Part shown: in pieces, positions 37,229-46,230 of the stretch | How the letters are laid out: every line of letters starts with the position of its first letter | Position numbering within the stretch: the stretch's first letter is position 1 | Virus record (IMG/VR): IMGVR_UViG_3300004369_000001 | Span: 43,784-107,783 of that record | Source: a virus | Strand: one strand, 5' to 3' | DNA length: 64,000 nucleotides | Program-made: the position numbers and the translations under genes | The notes under the pieces: model-generated | The model's input: only the letters and a program-made list of their open reading frames with translations | Databases searched by the model: none | What the model was told of the DNA's origin: nothing

Positions 37229-38635
37229 TTACTTTGCTTTCCTAATCGAATCTTTTGTTAGATACAGAGTTGTGATCATCCCTTGCTTTCTGAAAGCGTG
37301 GTGAAGGCTTGCAATTAAGTATTTTCCAGAGTAGACTCTATCTTCAACAACTTGACCATCCTCGGATTTAGATTCAGGGATACTAACCTCAATGATCTGT
37401 CCGACCGTTAGCATAGTATTTCCTGGCACTACAATCGTTAGTTGGATAGAGTTAAGCAAGGCATATCTTGCCGATGCATATGAAGCGACTTGAATAGTAT
37501 CGATGTGCTCTGTCGTGCCTCCATTGGCGTTACCACCTCCCTTAGGCATGTGGTTAAGTGACGGCATCACCCTAAACTTATATCTTGTCGCTGGTTGTGT
37601 ATCTGGATTGGTAAACTTAGTGCCTGGGAATGGTGGCTCAGTATCAATAGTGTTTGCTTTTTTGAAGGTTTTCTCGAATGTGGGCTCCATATTCTTAATC
37701 TTCACATTCGCTGTGCTATTGCCAGATCCACTCCCTCCACTTGGAAGGAATGATTGACCTTGAGCAGCAATAGAAATACCCAACACTGATGTCTTGTAGA
37801 GACCAGAGCGTAACTTCTCCAGATGATTTGTCTTGTCTGGATATGTTGCTGACTGAATCTTGTAAAACTCGTCAATGGGGTCGTTAGTCTCAACAGATTG
37901 CTGTGAGTATGTAAACTTCCTTCCACTCACTCCTTGGCTGCACAGGGCATCAATAGACTTGAAATGGAATCCATCTTTGTTTTCGTAGAAGAGGAATCCA
38001 GACTGTGCTTCAGATACCTTACCACCAGCAGATCCACCTTTTCTGACAACTTTGTCGGAGCAGTATACGATAGCATCGATGGGTCTCCAATTTGGACTGT
38101 AGAAACAGATCTGGGAATGTGCCTCAAAGTTTTCACTTTTGACCTTGCTCCCTCCCTTGAGGACATCTTTGGCAACGTATTTGGGAAAATGCTCTTTATT
38201 TTTGTGCTTCTCACAAGGACCAAAGGCACCAAAGATTCTTCTTGCCTCATTCAAGAATTGCTCATGAGATACACAATGAAGGATATACACAACTGCTCTT
38301 TCATTCTTAACAAAACTTCCAACCTTAAACAGTCGGAAGATGACTTCAAGGGGCTCGTCATTAGAGCTCTCTGATGTTAGTTTTACCTTTACGACTTCTT
38401 TACCACGCAGACTCTTATATAAGTCGATAGCATCAACTATAGTGATATCACATCTTAAGAATGGTGCATCAATCGATTCGTAGTAGTTAATTTCTGCTAC
38501 AAGCTCTCGAATATCAATAGCATTCTTACCACTCGATCTTTGTTTTGGATTGAGGGGTGCTTCCCAATCCATTTCCGCTCCGAGAGTGATGCTGCATTCG
38601 TTTAATGCTATTTGTTTTGCTTTACGACTTGCCAT
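37229..38635 (-). CDS. gp27: gp27-like baseplate hub protein (468 aa)
   Basis: The N-terminal part (SGKNAIDIRELVAEINYYES, then FLRCDITIVDAIDLYKSLRG) and the FYSPNWRPIDAIVYCSDKVV segment match the layout of T4 gp27-type hub proteins and related tail hubs. Gene order (hub, then tape-measure-like genes upstream, gp5 downstream with two auxiliary genes between) agrees. It would form the trimeric hub ring. A late-type box lies 35 bp upstream. The assignment rests on position and partial motif likeness. Confidence 0.65.
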   Translation of the reverse strand: MASRKAKQIALNECSITLGAEMDWEAPLNPKQRSSGKNAIDIRELVAEINYYESIDAPFLRCDITIVDAIDLYKSLRGKEVVKVKLTSESSNDEPLEVIFRLFKVGSFVKNERAVVYILHCVSHEQFLNEARRIFGAFGPCEKHKNKEHFPKYVAKDVLKGGSKVKSENFEAHSQICFYSPNWRPIDAIVYCSDKVVRKGGSAGGKVSEAQSGFLFYENKDGFHFKSIDALCSQGVSGRKFTYSQQSVETNDPIDEFYKIQSATYPDKTNHLEKLRSGLYKTSVLGISIAAQGQSFLPSGGSGSGNSTANVKIKNMEPTFEKTFKKANTIDTEPPFPGTKFTNPDTQPATRYKFRVMPSLNHMPKGGGNANGGTTEHIDTIQVASYASARYALLNSIQLTIVVPGNTMLTVGQIIEVSIPESKSEDGQVVEDRVYSGKYLIASLHHAFRKQGMITTLYLTKDSIRKAK

Positions 38636-41600
38636 TACTTAATCGTTGCGGTGAAATTCATATCGGGGTTATTTATTACAAAGGGGTTAAACTTAGAAAC
38701 TTGGAATGGATCTGCTTCTAAATTCTTATTCAATGGGGGTGTAACAATAAAGTTGGTATCATCACCCTCAGCAGGGATCTCGAATGGGATGTTGTTTCCT
38801 GATCCAGCCATCTTGCGAGGGTCAAATGCATTCTCCATGGCATCCATGTATTCCTTATCCTGTGCAATCGTATTCATTGTATCTGCACTTTCTTGGAGAA
38901 TTGCGGAAGTGATTGCTTCTCCCTTCCCTTGCTTCATTGCCTCACTAAACTTCTTCAATGCCTCTTCCAGTGCCTTTCCATGGTCTTGCTTCTCAGAAGT
39001 TTCTGCACTAGAAGTAGAGTCACTGCTGTCAGTAGTTGGCGCTGCCAACTTGCTGGGATCTGGGGCAGATCCAGACGGATGCAGTCCATCAGTTGTAGTG
39101 AAAGATCCACCGAATCCTGCCCCACCCGCAGCTGCAAGTGCTTTCAGTTTGTTGTTGATTTCTTCACTCTTGAAATCTGGGTAACCTTTAGATGCAGCAT
39201 CACTAGAAACACCACCAAGGATAACTTGCTTTGCACCTGCTTGCTTGAGCATTGTAAGTTGCCTTTCAATGCTGTCATATGGGACATTTGTGTATGCATT
39301 GGTGGCACCAGAAGACAGGAATACTGTCTTCCCAGCAATGTCAGATTTTCTTCTGCTGATCATCTGAAGCACTTGTCCAGGTTGTGCTCCAACCATGGTC
39401 TCACCATTGGGTTTGCTCACAAGTTGCTGGTTGGATCCATTGTGACCAGCAAACCCAGAGGCAATACTATCGCCAATGAAAAAGTCATACTCACCACCTT
39501 CAGCATACCGTGGGAGGAGATTCCATTTAACTGTTGTGGGTTGATACTGTCCACCAGCAGCGAAGGGTAGGGCATACCCACCTTTTGCTGCTTCCTTCAT
39601 TCTCCTGCCAGTAAGACCCTTGTTATTGCGAGTTGCTGGGGTGTTAAATGGGACAACGAATGCGCTACCACCTGACGCTCTGCCAGGATATCCAACCCAC
39701 TCAAGTCCATGTCCAATAAAGGAAGTCGATTTACCACCGTCAAGAGATACTGGGTAACCTGACATAGGACCATTGATCCACCCACCTTTGGCAAATCCAC
39801 CAAGAGATTGTGGCACTTGTCCACCTTCGGCAAACCAAGTTGAAGGATTCCAAAACTTGAATGCTTTGTCAGATTCTGCAGTAGGACCTTTACTTCTTTC
39901 AGCGAGGTGTCCGACAAGTTTTCCCATTAAACCTAGGACAGACTCTTTGCCTCCAGCAAGAATCTCATTTACTTTACCAATACCATCTTCTTGCCTTTCC
40001 TGGTCCTTACCAGACTGTGCAGCATCTTCAGCACCTTTTTCACTACCACCCAGACCAAGCATACTCAGGGGTATACCAAATGCCGAAGCAATGGGGTTGA
40101 GAAGATTCCCCAACATCTGCTTAATTGGTGCAGGTAGGAATTTAGCAAATGTCCTAGATACCTTTCCAATAGCAGATACAATACCCAAACCGATTGCTTT
40201 CAGTGGCAATCTCATCAATTCACCTAAAGCGGCGACTTTAGTGATGAGTTGTCTCTGAATGGATTGTGGGTCGAATGGATTGATATTAGGAAGATTAAAT
40301 CCATTCGCTGCGCTCTCTCCACCCTCAGCCATCTGTGGGACCACCACAGGGGTCACTACAGGACCCCCTGACGCCCTCTTTGTGGTGGTCTCCTTCTTAG
40401 GTTTTTTATCTCCACCAGCACCAGAGAAGAAGTTAAGAATCCATGTCAATGCTTTGAGTAGACCAATCAAAGGTAGGAATGCTGCAGTGCCGAAGAATCC
40501 TGCGATCTTCTTCAGAAGAGGCATATGTGGTTCGATGAAGTCTAAGATCTTCGTCATCACATTGCCAAGGGCAGTGAAGAATTCATGTGTTGCGTCTTTG
40601 ATCGGTTTGAAGACTGCATTAAACAGATCTCCAACCATTCCAAAGAATTCTTTGATTGGATCGATGATAGGCGCAAGCATCTCGCCAATAGGACCACCAA
40701 TGGCACCGCCAACAAAAGCACCAGCAGCACCAGCAATAGGTGCTAGAGCACCCAGTCCAGCAGCATTCGCCAAACCTTCACCAGCAGCATAACCAGCAGC
40801 ACCGCCTACAGCAGATCCTGCCAAACTTGCCTTACTCTGGTCCTCACCACCAAACATAGCGGCAGATGCAAGACCTATGCCACCACCAACAACTGCTGCC
40901 CTGCCAAATTTATTGCCCATAATCTTTCCAGGCAGGCTCTTCAACTTGGAAGCAATCTTGCTCCCTTTCATGATATTGACAAATGACTTGGCAAGATTCT
41001 TGACAACCCACATCACCCCATCGACTGCTAGTTTGGGGTTTTTCAATACTGCCATGGCAGCAAATAGTGGTGCCGCACTCAGGACAAACTGAACGGCACC
41101 GAAGAATCCTGAAATACTCAGGGGATTCTCTAAGAATTTAACTAGACCATCAAGGGCAGATCCAACCAGAAACTCAGTAATCTTATATGCAAATTTTGCA
41201 ATAGAGAGTAAACCTTTAGCAAGTTTCTTTACCTTGTCTGGGTTTTTGATCATCCAGTCAAGGACGGCAAACTTAATAAACCCTCCCAACAACCACTTGG
41301 CAACACCTGCCAAAAGACCAAACAAACCTCCGAAAGTTTTTGCAACGCCAACTGCAAATCCTTCCATGAGTTTCTTCATGGGACCTTCTTTAATAACAGA
41401 GTCAGAATCTCTCTTCGATCTCTGCAGTTTTTTCTTTCTATCTGTTTCGTCTCTCTTCTGCTGTAGTTTCTCCTCAGCGTCTCTCTTAGCGTTGTATTTG
41501 GTTAGTGCTGCTTGATTTTGAATCTGAATCTGAGTTGATTTCTTCATCTCAGTTAGCACACCTTCCATTGCAATAGCAATAGAATTTAAGGTGCCACCTA

Positions 41601-41733
41601 AACTATTAACAGCAGAAATCGTTGACTTCAGACCACTAGAAGTTTCGGTTGACGCCTCAGTGTCAATCCCCTTGAATGAAACCATCTTGTAAAGTGCTGG
41701 TTTCGTGACTCGTATTGTCGGTCTTTCTGCCAT
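38635..41733 (-). CDS. tape-measure-like protein with SGNH hydrolase domain (1032 aa)
   Basis: The N-terminal 120 residues form a coiled coil (KYNAKRDAEEKLQQKRDETD). A long Gly/Ala-rich hydrophobic middle (about 130-440) follows, with FAYKITEFLVGSALDGLVKF resembling the next gene. Residues 750-890 form an SGNH/GDSL hydrolase domain: IGDSIASG with the nucleophile Ser, SSGATNAY with the oxyanion Gly/Asn, and DGLHPSG with the Asp-His pair. SGNH enzymes are often esterases that remove acetyl groups from glycans. Probably a second tape-measure/hub protein carrying an enzyme. Stop and start overlap the next gene. Confidence 0.7.
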   Translation of the reverse strand: MAERPTIRVTKPALYKMVSFKGIDTEASTETSSGLKSTISAVNSLGGTLNSIAIAMEGVLTEMKKSTQIQIQNQAALTKYNAKRDAEEKLQQKRDETDRKKKLQRSKRDSDSVIKEGPMKKLMEGFAVGVAKTFGGLFGLLAGVAKWLLGGFIKFAVLDWMIKNPDKVKKLAKGLLSIAKFAYKITEFLVGSALDGLVKFLENPLSISGFFGAVQFVLSAAPLFAAMAVLKNPKLAVDGVMWVVKNLAKSFVNIMKGSKIASKLKSLPGKIMGNKFGRAAVVGGGIGLASAAMFGGEDQSKASLAGSAVGGAAGYAAGEGLANAAGLGALAPIAGAAGAFVGGAIGGPIGEMLAPIIDPIKEFFGMVGDLFNAVFKPIKDATHEFFTALGNVMTKILDFIEPHMPLLKKIAGFFGTAAFLPLIGLLKALTWILNFFSGAGGDKKPKKETTTKRASGGPVVTPVVVPQMAEGGESAANGFNLPNINPFDPQSIQRQLITKVAALGELMRLPLKAIGLGIVSAIGKVSRTFAKFLPAPIKQMLGNLLNPIASAFGIPLSMLGLGGSEKGAEDAAQSGKDQERQEDGIGKVNEILAGGKESVLGLMGKLVGHLAERSKGPTAESDKAFKFWNPSTWFAEGGQVPQSLGGFAKGGWINGPMSGYPVSLDGGKSTSFIGHGLEWVGYPGRASGGSAFVVPFNTPATRNNKGLTGRRMKEAAKGGYALPFAAGGQYQPTTVKWNLLPRYAEGGEYDFFIGDSIASGFAGHNGSNQQLVSKPNGETMVGAQPGQVLQMISRRKSDIAGKTVFLSSGATNAYTNVPYDSIERQLTMLKQAGAKQVILGGVSSDAASKGYPDFKSEEINNKLKALAAAGGAGFGGSFTTTDGLHPSGSAPDPSKLAAPTTDSSDSTSSAETSEKQDHGKALEEALKKFSEAMKQGKGEAITSAILQESADTMNTIAQDKEYMDAMENAFDPRKMAGSGNNIPFEIPAEGDDTNFIVTPPLNKNLEADPFQVSKFNPFVINNPDMNFTATIK

Positions 41734-44700
41734 TATCTATGCAGTCCTGGTGTTGTCGGAGTCATAATCTGTTTGGTCTGTTTTCCTCCCGACGATTGGG
41801 GTTGCTGACCACTACCATTATTTATCGGCACAGGCACGAGGGTAGGTCTAGTGCTCTTAGCACGCGCACGCTCACGCTCCTTCCTTTCAGCTTCTGATTT
41901 TTGCAATGCTTCTGCTTGCTTAGATTTAACATCACTCGCAGATCCAGCAGTCACTTCAGGATTTGCTTTTGCTGGAGATGTTTTAGGTCCTTCGCCCTTT
42001 CCCTTATCTAGCGGTGGTGCCTTACCAGACTTCATCGCTTCGCTAAATTTAGCAAGAGCCTCATTGAGAGTAGCGATTCTACTCTCAATAGTATCTGGTT
42101 TTTCTGGCTCTTCATCAACGCCCCCACCGCCCCCACCACTATTGTCACCAGCAGGAGTTGAGCTTCCTTCTTTCATTGTATCTGGATCGTATGTAGCGCC
42201 AAGTTGAGCAGCAGCAAATGCTCTATGGTCACTTGGAGATGCATCCAAGTGGACATGCACAGATCCTGATGGCTTATTACCCTGTAATCCAATTACAGTC
42301 ATAGCATCAACCATCTGTCCAACACTTGTCTTGATCGCATCAAAGTGGTGGAACTGCATTCTTTCCTTGCCATTTGAAGAAATAATGACAGTATTGTGGG
42401 ATCCACCTGCATGGGTTACTTTACCGCTTACGCCAGCAACAATTGGAGTGCCTCTATCCAGACCTTGATTGCCGAAGTCCCTGACTGCAACATAATCTCT
42501 CGGAACAATAGGAGGACCACCCAATCTATGATTGTTGTATGAATGTGTATCGGGTTTATTGTGGTGAAGTGGGTAACTATTAAATGGTGTTTGTGGCGTC
42601 AGACGCACATCAGCTACAGATCCATTGGTGGCGAGTAGACCACCTGCAGCAAAAAATTTCCTCGGTTTGTCAGTTGTGCGCTTCGCATCTATATCTTGCT
42701 GTATCTTTTCATATACCTTTATATCGCTGGGCTCTCCCATGCCAAAACGACCGCTTCTTCTTATCCTACCGCCAGCTGCAGCAAACTGGATTTTTCTCAC
42801 CAATTCTCTTTCAGCAGCAGTTGCTTTATCACTAGGTCCAACCCAAGGAGAAATCCCTCTCTCCTTAATGAGTTGGATCGCCATCTTATCTTGAACTGTG
42901 TTATTAAATTTCATGTCATCGGTGACACCAGCGCGGGCAGCCACTCCTGGGAGTGTATTTCCAACAAACTGATATCTACCAACGGCGTGTAATTTTCCAG
43001 ACGACTGCCACTGCGCCCAAGTTTGTTTTGGAGTCTGTTCTGCCTGTCTTTGTTTTATCTCACCGACAGTCATATCGGTAAGTGGTGTCTTTGAAGGATT
43101 CCAAGGTGCATCCATAATGTTGCCAGAGAAACCAAGCACTCCACGCCCGTTATTGCTACCACCCTGGTTGACAGCATTATATCCAGCAGCACCAGACTCA
43201 TATTTGGCAAGCACCCCTAGTGCTGCTCTTTCATCATCAGTTATTTCTGCGCTGAAGTCAGTCGGACCTGCTGTTGAAGGTCCACTTGGTCCACTTTGAT
43301 TATTGCCTGCACTGCGTCTACCACCACCACTTTTCTGATTTGCTGCAGCCTCAACTGCCTTCTTAAGCAATCCGACCAGAGAGTTGCCACTACCACCGAG
43401 AATATTTCGAGTTGATTCGTATTTACTATCCTCCTTGGATTTAATATCCTTCGTGCCACCGAGATCACCAGATCTCGCAAGTGTGCCCAGTGCTGTGCCA
43501 CCTGCTGCAGCAGGAGCAGCGGATCCAAATACTGATTGTATCCTAGCAATATCCTGAGCAATTACTTTAGAAACATCGGGAGCAACAAATCCAAAAGCAT
43601 TAACGCCAGCAAGAATGGCAGATGTCAGTCCATTTCCAACAAGATCAAACGTTGCCAGTGGGTTTGCCATACCCATCATCATCGGGTTGCCGAGAGGACC
43701 ACCCATCATCATCTTGGGTGTGACTATATCTGGGACAACAACCTTACCACCACCAGCAAACTGCTCAACATTTGGTTTCTGCTGTGCTGCTTTCTGGTTT
43801 GCTGCTTGTTTTAGATCAACACCATCACCAGGATTCTTACCTCTAATTACATCCCAAGCAAATCCAATCGGATTCATGGCAAATTTGACAATATTCTTAA
43901 TCAAGTTGAATTGGAAAGACATTATCTTGAAGATCGTCTTAACTCCTTCGCCAATAACGAATCCCACAAACTTCATGATGGGACCGACGAATTCCATTAC
44001 GAATCCGACGACCTTACCTATCGCACCAAAGAATGCACTGAAGAAAGGTCCAACCTCTTTCAGAAGGGGATCAAAGACTGCCTTGAAGATTTCCATCCCC
44101 ATGCCAAACCAACGCTTGATCGGTCCAAAAATAGGCTCGATCAGGGGTCCAATCTGACCACCAATAAACTCACCCAGGAAGTCACCGATGAATCCTCCCA
44201 CCATAGGAGCAAACGGACCCAGGAAGGGGGTCAGAAACGCTGTGCCCAGTGCTGCGCCAGCAATGCCACCAACTGCCTTACCGACGCCAGCACCGACCGC
44301 AGTGCCCTTCTCCTCGCCCTCACGGTCGCCTTCCATGATGCGTCCAACACCACCCACAACGGACATACCCGCTGATAGCAGTCCAGCACCACCACCTAAC
44401 TTCGCACTTACCTTACTACCAAAACCCTTAACTTTGTTTAATCCACGTCCCATCACGCCAGGCTTTTGTGCCCTACGCATGGCTTCATACTCTTGCTTAG
44501 AGTAGAATTTACCAGTTTCCTTATCGAAATATCCGCCTCTAGTCCTTTCCTGCTGATCGGTAACCTGATTCTCTGTCTCCTTGACTGCAGAGAATGCACC
44601 GATAATAAACTTGATATCTGTAAGGATTCTCCAGGGTCCAGTTAGGTATCTAAGGACCAGAAGACCTCCTGTTAGTTGTAAGAAACCAAATACAAATCGA

Positions 44701-45323
44701 AGTCCACGCTTGACTCCATTCTCCTTGATTCCCTTGGCACTATGGTCACCAAACATGTTGGTGAGTCCGTTCATAACAGCGAACACACCAAACTTGGTAA
44801 TCTTGTAGGCAAACTTACCAATGGCAACAAATAGTCGGATTACCTTTACTATCTTATCTGCGTTTTTCTCTATGTAATCTAGGGCACCAAATGCTAGGAA
44901 GGCACCAAAGATTGCACTGAAGAATCCTGCAATCTTTTCTAGGAATGTCTTGACAGGTTTTAACTCCTTCTTTTTATCCTCAACCTTCCCAGCATCTTTC
45001 TTGCCGCGATCAACTGCTAACTTAGCAGATGCATCCCTTCTGAGTTTCTGAGTATTCTTATTTTCTTCCTTCGCAAGTTTAGACTTGAGTAACTTTTTAT
45101 TCTTTACCCTATTCTTGTCAGTCTCGATTGCTTGATTATGAGTTGTATTCAGGAATTCATTTTGAAACTTGAGCAACTCATACATGCTCTCAATACTTTT
45201 ACCAATACCTGTGGCCGTGCCTCCAATGCGATTCACAGACAACCGAAGGGCATTAAAATTTTGCCCTGTTTTGGTGACAGCCTTAAACGGTTTAACTTTT
45301 AGGTATGACCTGATTATTGCCAT
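41733..45323 (-). CDS. tape-measure-like protein with lysozyme and M23-like domains (1196 aa)
   Basis: It opens with MAIIRSYLKVKPFKAV and a coiled-coil region, then long hydrophobic Gly/Ala-rich segments (about 130-450), one with IGKFAYKITKFGVFAVMNGL like the paralogue downstream. Residues 700-830 form a lysozyme-like domain (LAKYESGAAGYNAVNQGG with the catalytic Glu near 707; VGRYQFVGNTLPG near 782). Residues 945-1030 look like an M23-type peptidase fold (GTPIVAGVSGKVTHAGG; SVHVHLD). The C-terminus is charged and disordered. It replaces the missing gp5 lysozyme. Probably the gp29-type tape measure, translated directly after the gp26/gp51 pair. Confidence 0.7.
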   Translation of the reverse strand: MAIIRSYLKVKPFKAVTKTGQNFNALRLSVNRIGGTATGIGKSIESMYELLKFQNEFLNTTHNQAIETDKNRVKNKKLLKSKLAKEENKNTQKLRRDASAKLAVDRGKKDAGKVEDKKKELKPVKTFLEKIAGFFSAIFGAFLAFGALDYIEKNADKIVKVIRLFVAIGKFAYKITKFGVFAVMNGLTNMFGDHSAKGIKENGVKRGLRFVFGFLQLTGGLLVLRYLTGPWRILTDIKFIIGAFSAVKETENQVTDQQERTRGGYFDKETGKFYSKQEYEAMRRAQKPGVMGRGLNKVKGFGSKVSAKLGGGAGLLSAGMSVVGGVGRIMEGDREGEEKGTAVGAGVGKAVGGIAGAALGTAFLTPFLGPFAPMVGGFIGDFLGEFIGGQIGPLIEPIFGPIKRWFGMGMEIFKAVFDPLLKEVGPFFSAFFGAIGKVVGFVMEFVGPIMKFVGFVIGEGVKTIFKIMSFQFNLIKNIVKFAMNPIGFAWDVIRGKNPGDGVDLKQAANQKAAQQKPNVEQFAGGGKVVVPDIVTPKMMMGGPLGNPMMMGMANPLATFDLVGNGLTSAILAGVNAFGFVAPDVSKVIAQDIARIQSVFGSAAPAAAGGTALGTLARSGDLGGTKDIKSKEDSKYESTRNILGGSGNSLVGLLKKAVEAAANQKSGGGRRSAGNNQSGPSGPSTAGPTDFSAEITDDERAALGVLAKYESGAAGYNAVNQGGSNNGRGVLGFSGNIMDAPWNPSKTPLTDMTVGEIKQRQAEQTPKQTWAQWQSSGKLHAVGRYQFVGNTLPGVAARAGVTDDMKFNNTVQDKMAIQLIKERGISPWVGPSDKATAAERELVRKIQFAAAGGRIRRSGRFGMGEPSDIKVYEKIQQDIDAKRTTDKPRKFFAAGGLLATNGSVADVRLTPQTPFNSYPLHHNKPDTHSYNNHRLGGPPIVPRDYVAVRDFGNQGLDRGTPIVAGVSGKVTHAGGSHNTVIISSNGKERMQFHHFDAIKTSVGQMVDAMTVIGLQGNKPSGSVHVHLDASPSDHRAFAAAQLGATYDPDTMKEGSSTPAGDNSGGGGGGVDEEPEKPDTIESRIATLNEALAKFSEAMKSGKAPPLDKGKGEGPKTSPAKANPEVTAGSASDVKSKQAEALQKSEAERKERERARAKSTRPTLVPVPINNGSGQQPQSSGGKQTKQIMTPTTPGLHR

Positions 45324-45526
45324 TAGAGTGAGATTCGGTTGCTATTCTTTTCGCTATTACGACGACGCTCTTCTTCTTGTAGGAAAGCAAGGAGAAGATT
45401 CACATACACATCTCTTTCCCAAGGTATCATATCCTCCAATTCTGTTAGAGAATACTTATGGTGCTGCATCAGGGCAAAATTAGTCTTGTAGTAATTCTCA
45501 AGATTATCATGCAGCAGTGCTATGCG
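45323..45526 (-). CDS. gp51-like C-terminal extension in the -1 frame
   Basis: An open -1 frame of 67 residues continues gp26: RIALLHDNLENYYKTNFALM, then a helical part with TELEDMIPWERDVYVNLLL and an acidic/basic end. The part before its first ATG (45469) reads as protein-like sequence (LHDNLENYY) and lacks a start of its own. This suggests it is made as a gp26 fusion of 302 residues by -1 frameshifting. Separate translation of 48 residues from 45469 remains possible. It overlaps the next ATG (TAATG). Confidence 0.6.
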   Translation of the reverse strand, partial: RIALLHDNLENYYKTNFALMQHHKYSLTELEDMIPWERDVYVNLLLAFLQEEERRRNSEKNSNRISL

Positions 45527-46230
45527 AAAAAAGACGCCAATCCCTCAAACACAATCTCATTATCTTTTTTGGTCTTGGGATTTCTCACAGTCATTTCATA
45601 TCTCAGTTTAGGCATAGTCTCAAAGAAGTTTTGGACCTTAGCAAACTGATCAGAATTCAGAGACTCCAAGAAATCAATTGCTTCCTTTTTGGTGAAGCTG
45701 TCATAAGTCTCATCTTCATCAAATGCTTGGGCAATACAACCTGCCGCAAGCTCAAAGATGTCATCAATACGAACATCGCCTTCTGTCATATTCTGATTGA
45801 CGAATACATCCAGCGAAGGATACTTCATGATCACGCCAACTTTCTTGTCAAACATGATCTTAGTGTCATGGCCCTCAGGAACATCAATCTCAACGTCTTG
45901 CAGGGGAATCTGCACTTCAACCTGAGTTACTTCATCATCTGGGCAAGTGACCTTAAATTCACTCACTTCACCAACTGCTTTACCACGAATTCTGAGGAAG
46001 ATGTATTCCACTTCAAAAGTGGCAAGTCCCTCAACCTCATTCTCTTTAAGGTTTGTGCAGTTTTTAATGATAGTTTTGACCGCCTTGATCATCTCCTTCT
46101 CATTCTTGGATTCCATAGCAAGATAGAGGAGTTTCTCTTCCTTCACGAGGAAGGGGCGATATGTAAGTTTTCTCCCTGTAAGGGGCATCACCAAGTCATA
46201 CTCGGGCAATGCAAGTTTAGGCAAAGGCAT
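45520..46230 (-). CDS. gp26: gp26-like baseplate hub assembly protein (236 aa)
   Basis: MPLPKLALPEYDLVMPLTGR (with KLTYRPFLVKEEKLL) is the characteristic start of the T4 gp26-type baseplate protein (PF12322). In T4, gp26 and gp51 act early in hub assembly with the tape measure gp29. The last codons are GCG TCT TTT TTC GCA TAG, with a slippery heptamer T-TTT-TTC three codons before the stop. A CTAAATA late-type box lies at 46255-46261. Family assignment good; its assembly role is by homology. Confidence 0.8.
   Translation of the reverse strand: MPLPKLALPEYDLVMPLTGRKLTYRPFLVKEEKLLYLAMESKNEKEMIKAVKTIIKNCTNLKENEVEGLATFEVEYIFLRIRGKAVGEVSEFKVTCPDDEVTQVEVQIPLQDVEIDVPEGHDTKIMFDKKVGVIMKYPSLDVFVNQNMTEGDVRIDDIFELAAGCIAQAFDEDETYDSFTKKEAIDFLESLNSDQFAKVQNFFETMPKLRYEMTVRNPKTKKDNEIVFEGLASFFA
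45526..45532 (-). promoter_or_regulatory. putative -1 frameshift site T-TTT-TTC
   Basis: In the gp26 frame the sequence reads TCT TTT TTC GCA TAG, so the heptamer T TTT TTC is exactly in phase for tandem slippage into TTT TTT and the -1 frame is open for 67 more codons. It lies directly upstream of the tape-measure-like gene, as in lambda G/GT-type tail assembly chaperones. No downstream stem-loop was tested. Confidence 0.6.

Follow-up and report, generated by a model that had tools for sequence, protein, structure and literature searches.

Gene organization at the gp26-like junction

The window analyzed here, a 64,000-nucleotide stretch of IMG/VR virus record IMGVR_UViG_3300004369_000001, comes from a virus whose kin are marine cyanobacterial phages. 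A gp26-like gene on the minus strand (46230-45520) encodes a 236-amino-acid protein that matched Pfam family PF12322 (E value, 3e-66; 223.7 bits, with a curated cut-off of 24.5) and positions 5 to 232 of the PHROG profile phrog_150 (E value, 4e-70), and it is the candidate short form of a tail assembly chaperone (TAC-N, or G-like). The 3' end of the gene reads GAG GGA TTG GCG TCT TTT TTC GCA TAG, with TCT at 45534-45532, TTT at 45531-45529, TTC at 45528-45526, GCA at 45525-45523, and the stop codon TAG at 45522-45520. The heptamer T-TTT-TTC (45532-45526, minus strand) is in the X-XXY-YYZ phase, one codon ahead of the stop, and a Shine-Dalgarno (SD)-like element, GAGGGA (45546-45541, minus strand), precedes it.

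From its entry codon, CGC (45526-45524), the −1 frame has 67 sense codons and then a TAA (45325-45323), and the tape-measure-like gene starts with an ATG (45323-45321) overlapping this stop. The placement of the heptamer and the length of the open −1 frame given in the initial annotation were thus confirmed to the base. The earliest ATG in this frame is at 45469 (codon 20), inside the conserved region, and no GTG or TTG precedes it. The sequence TTTTTTC occurs twice on the minus strand of the 64 kb and five times on the other strand; from this density, our own arithmetic gives a probability of about 1e-4 that one falls in phase no more than 5 codons away from the end of a particular gene.

The −1 extension (45526-45323, minus strand; TAC-C, or T-like, the "gp51" tail) matched phrog_634, "baseplate hub assembly catalyst" (E value, 1.6e-29). 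It also matched phrog_150 positions 237 to 276, a direct continuation of the gp26 match, which indicates that the family profiles already include the joined form. Joining the gp26-like protein to the extension gives a predicted long form of 302 amino acids, with the junction-spanning peptide ...GLASFFRIALLHDNLENYYK. The 107,783-base source record, possibly a fragment, contains one PF12322 copy.

The pair sits between a tail-tube-fold gene upstream (tail tube or gp54-like; 47052-46258, minus strand; phrog_45; E value, 2.6e-41) and a gene for a tape-measure-like protein of 1196 amino acids directly downstream (45323-41733, minus strand), which matched phrog_90 (E value, 5e-85), phrog_794, tail length tape measure (E value, 5e-8), and PF01551, an M23 peptidase domain. 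The latter is one of two long tape-measure-like open reading frames in tandem on the minus strand (38635-41733 and 41733-45323; 1032 and 1196 amino acids), which have phrog_1200, phrog_5867, phrog_2588, and phrog_17500 in common, as if duplicated; the M23 domain is present in one of the two.

The only Foldseek matches in the PDB with a probability near 0.5 for a structural model of the gp26-like protein (pLDDT, 84) were chains of 2ob9, the tail assembly chaperone of HK97 (probabilities of 0.57, with an E value of 0.63, and 0.51; E values of 0.6 to 0.8, not significant), a likeness that is suggestive only. A Foldseek search of the PDB with a model of T4-type gp51 (pLDDT, 87.5) gave no meaningful match, and no real match was found in a profile search against PDB sequences.

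Conservation of the slippery heptamer

In order to compare the junction across relatives, the −1 frame was used as a tblastn query and matched 544 phage records; in the records compared, the start of these matches coincides with the final bases of the gp26 match. In close IMG/VR relatives together with P-SSM2 and P-TIM40, TTTTTTCG was in phase at 40/40 distinct junctions. A broader set comprised 65 representatives less than 90% identical to each other. One of these, the Desulfovibrio 7757 junction, was mis-framed in the automatic set (by eye, it reads GAT TTT TTC ATC TAG) and was left out of the counts, leaving 64. A Phe-Phe pair is present near the gp26 end in 63 of the 64 representatives, and N-N-T TTT TTY was found in phase in all 63 of these. 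The T-TTT-TTY motif is intact down to approximately 20 to 30% identity, in Vibrio, Aeromonas, Sinorhizobium, Stenotrophomonas, and Pseudomonas phages, and the codon before TTT TTY (AGT, GAT, TCT, GCT, AAT, or ACT) ends in T every time.

Under gp26 codon usage, in which TTT accounts for 65% of Phe codons and third-position T for 35 to 77% depending on the residue, the joint probability of the heptamer codons is approximately 10^-27, a figure exaggerated by shared ancestry, since the calculation treats the phages as independent; the other statistics across relatives likewise count kindred sequences as independent. The initial annotation had proposed a comparison with other cyanophages for a conserved heptamer, a preserved −1 frame, and the absence of an early ATG. 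As to the last of these, the first 10 codons of the −1 frame lack ATG, GTG, and TTG in 13 relatives, and many other relatives have an ATG at codons 1 to 3 after the stop, so that for those relatives the absence of a start codon is no argument.

Coding selection ahead of the first ATG

Among 19 window-like representatives, codons 1 to 17 of the −1 frame after the zero-frame stop had a pN/pS of 0.088, compared to approximately 1.6 in the other two frames over the same codons. These codons lie ahead of the window's first ATG and are therefore probably translated from upstream. The earlier impression that the −1 frame is protein-like before 45469 was borne out by this result, and entry of the tail from gp26 is supported by the tests of conservation, codon choice, selection, and RNA structure.

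Candidate stimulatory elements

A Glu-Gly pair lies at a fixed spacing from the heptamer, with GAGGG 8 to 10 nucleotides 5' of it and GAGGGN ending 8 nucleotides before it. The Glu codon at this position is GAG in 48 of 52 relatives, compared to 34% of gp26 Glu codons (P = 1.2e-18) and 9 of 40 at other Glu-Gly pairs. This codon bias suggests that GAGGGA in the window is a stimulator of the dnaX type.

RNA folding was scanned across relatives in 70-nucleotide windows at 40-nucleotide steps from −600 to +600 around the heptamer. Structure was detected only immediately 3' of the heptamer, where the mean z score was −2.74 and 65% of relatives fell below −2; mean z scores at the remaining 30 offsets were between −1.03 and +0.32. 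In the window, a predicted stem-loop (45516-45462, minus strand; outer stem, 45516-45509 with 45469-45462) starts 9 nucleotides 3' of the heptamer, with a z score of −2.24 over 106 nucleotides. A single conserved RNA fold was rejected, as alifold gave no consensus across relatives. Stems vary by lineage, and thus it is the presence of structure that is kept, not its shape. These patterns suggest a three-part frameshift signal consisting of GAGGG, T-TTT-TTY, and a variable downstream stem.

T4 gp26 and gp51

Both T4 gp26 (208 amino acids; E value, 8.8e-64) and T4 gp51 (249 amino acids; E value, 3.9e-52) belong to PF12322, and both also match phrog_150. Only gp51 reaches the tail, matching phrog_150 to position 280 and phrog_634 with an E value of 1.2e-23. 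When the virtual frameshift product of the 63 relatives was compared to the T4-type gp51 family with hhalign, the alignment (probability, 99.0; E value, 2.8e-18) ran end to end, columns 13 to 282 against 7 to 246, and crossed the junction without a gap. Judged from these profile matches, T4 gp26 and gp51 are paralogues within PF12322, and gp51 is the long form, consisting of a gp26-like domain plus the tail, co-linear with the long form predicted for the window. The initial annotation treated gp26 and gp51 as separate hub proteins, so that a fusion would link two systems. This idea was rejected because the two T4 proteins are paralogous and gp51 is already fused.

T4 differs from the window in having separate genes 26 and 51, encoded on opposite strands, and in lacking the heptamer where gene 26 ends. 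The heptamer was found at none of nine complete T4-type gene 26 ends, which read GAG/GAA TTC TTT or similar. There are two PF12322 copies in T4 and one each in S-CRM01, D491s, Aeh1, and P-SSM2, which suggests that duplication and frameshifting are alternatives. A review of the T4 tail (PMC3004832) lists gp26 and gp51 as hub assembly chaperones and describes gp51 as essential, needed for assembly, not present in the final particle, and of unknown function.

Proposed mechanism and alternative explanations

The most probable explanation, to which we assign a probability of about 0.93, is that programmed −1 slippage at T-TTT-TTC yields a short gp26-like protein and a 302-amino-acid long chaperone, in the manner of lambda G/GT. 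The reading draws on the sequence and phase of the heptamer, its conservation, coding selection, codon choice, the peak of RNA structure, and the homology to T4 gp51; from these we infer slippage itself, its frequency, and chaperone action. The majority of ribosomes would end at the TAG and produce the short protein. A minority, aided by the upstream GAGGG and the downstream RNA stem, would pause on the heptamer and shift back one base, producing the long form with its gp51-like tail. By analogy to lambda gpG and gpGT, the product of the adjacent downstream tape-measure gene would become coated with many copies of the short form and few of the long form, and the gp51-like tail of the long form would recruit the tube.

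The main competing explanation is that the tail is a separate small gp51 with its own start codon, translated by termination-reinitiation at the gp26 stop. This is how many cyanophage records in GenBank annotate it, as a gene of its own, and in the many relatives with an ATG within 3 codons of the stop, reinitiation would be possible by sequence. The TAATG overlaps in Vibrio K475 and K413, which do not have the heptamer, point in the same direction. However, the first possible start codon (ATG, GTG, or TTG) of this frame in the window is codon 20 (45469), which already lies within the conserved region, and the codons ahead of that position are under strong purifying selection. A separate gene would also leave the heptamer and its codon choices unexplained, in T4 gp51 the native protein already joins the tail to a gp26-like domain, and GAGGG appears to lie too far from the early ATGs to serve them as a normal ribosome-binding site. 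We therefore consider a separate gp51 improbable.

It is less probable still that the long form arises from transcriptional rather than ribosomal slippage. In favor of this reading, a run of six Ts is present at the site in all frameshifters, but six Ts is short for efficient slippage by RNA polymerase, and the phase-specific heptamer, GAGGG at a dnaX-like spacing, and the RNA stem all point to the ribosome. A chance heptamer beside an unrelated conserved small gene, with no functional frameshift, can be given almost no weight: retention in 63 of 63 very divergent phages makes a chance origin untenable, and there are three independent signal components. Programmed ribosomal frameshifting thus best accounts for the junction.

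Relationship to known frameshift systems

In Escherichia coli dnaX, an SD-like element lies approximately 10 nucleotides from the slippery heptamer and a stem lies downstream. The spacing of GAGGG and the downstream stem in the window resemble this −1 cassette. The dnaX system differs from the one predicted for the window in its product, its heptamer (A-AAA-AAG), and its efficiency.

In T4-like phages, the tail assembly chaperone genes are reportedly genes 26 and 51. The likeness to lambda G/GT (Xu, Hendrix & Duda), in which a short protein and its −1 extension are encoded just ahead of the tape measure, was proposed in the initial annotation and is supported by the gene order and by coding selection on the extension. 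In lambda, an N-terminal domain is common to the short and long forms (PMC5009743). Lambda has another slippery heptamer, and sequence homology to it was not detected in the present analysis; the heptamer of the window is one codon before the stop, unlike that of G/GT. A 2016 review of recoding (PMC5009743) described G-T frameshifting as a conserved feature of long-tailed phages "except T4". According to two citing papers (PMC10885494 and PMC12846349), Vladimirov, Gautam & Davidson (2022; Virology 566:9-15) identified tail assembly chaperone genes in T4-like phages, and the TAC-N genes of these phages have poly-T slippery sites or are instead present as one short and one long gene. The discovery at the family level is therefore not new, and the uncultivated cyanophage of the window is apparently not among the phages described in the 2022 study. 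The locus is very probably a clean example of a known T4-like frameshifted chaperone pair and not a new type of system.

With the general idea already published, the gain lies in confirmation, in the anatomy of the signal, and in candidates for experiments. Possible additions are the three-part signal, the "missing" gp51 of Aeh1, and a third arrangement in Vibrio phages. Under the frameshift reading, hundreds of cyanophage records would need reannotation, as they list "gp51" as a small "baseplate hub assembly catalyst" of its own or leave it unannotated. The reading also suggests a role, open to experiment, for gp26 and gp51 of the T4 hub, which have long been obscure.

Exceptions and database annotation

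Vibrio K475 and K413, with gp26 proteins approximately 23 to 24% identical and one PF12322 copy per genome, keep the −1 frame without the heptamer and have an ATG overlapping the stop: CTT TTT GCG TAATG in K475 (L090, 2190-2410) and CTT TTC AAG TAATG in K413 (L198, 1480-1740). The initial annotation had regarded related phages with the heptamer destroyed and both frames intact as evidence against a frameshift, and these two junctions have precisely that form, but only in distant phages where another start has arisen. They may rely on stop-start coupling or, in K475, on slippage on the shorter T run. Scans of viral contigs with the Vibrio D491s and K475 queries found nothing.

A tentative idea, to which we give somewhat less than even odds, is that T4-like phages use three interchangeable routes to a short and a long product: the three-part frameshift signal, as in the window; duplication, as in T4; and the heptamer-free TAATG of the K413/K475 type, in which the tail would be separate. 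If so, a separate tail polypeptide in K413/K475-type phages would mean that covalent fusion is not required.

Sullivan et al. (2010; PMC3037559) reported that gp51 of cyanophages and marine vibriophages lacks approximately 200 N-terminal residues and that Aeh1 is missing gp51, and the frameshift reading accounts for both observations. Aeromonas phage Aeh1 has an unannotated tail in the −1 frame after gp26, behind GAT TTT TTC GAC TGA (L215, 1836-2001; NC_005260.1, 118835-119000; phrog_634 E value, 7e-17).

Several other records showed irregularities. In S-RSM4 (L201, 1427-2310), the tape-measure-like gene after gp51 is labelled as a 2OG-Fe(II) oxygenase family member, an apparent misannotation. 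The public records of S-WAM1 (L204, 918-1505) and ACG-2014d (L095, 1507-1695) clip the start of gp26 or omit the conserved −1 tail. A T4-type gene 51 (L213, 2836-2860) is split in two frames at approximately residue 113 to 120, as a result of either a sequencing error or a second recoding or pseudogene event.
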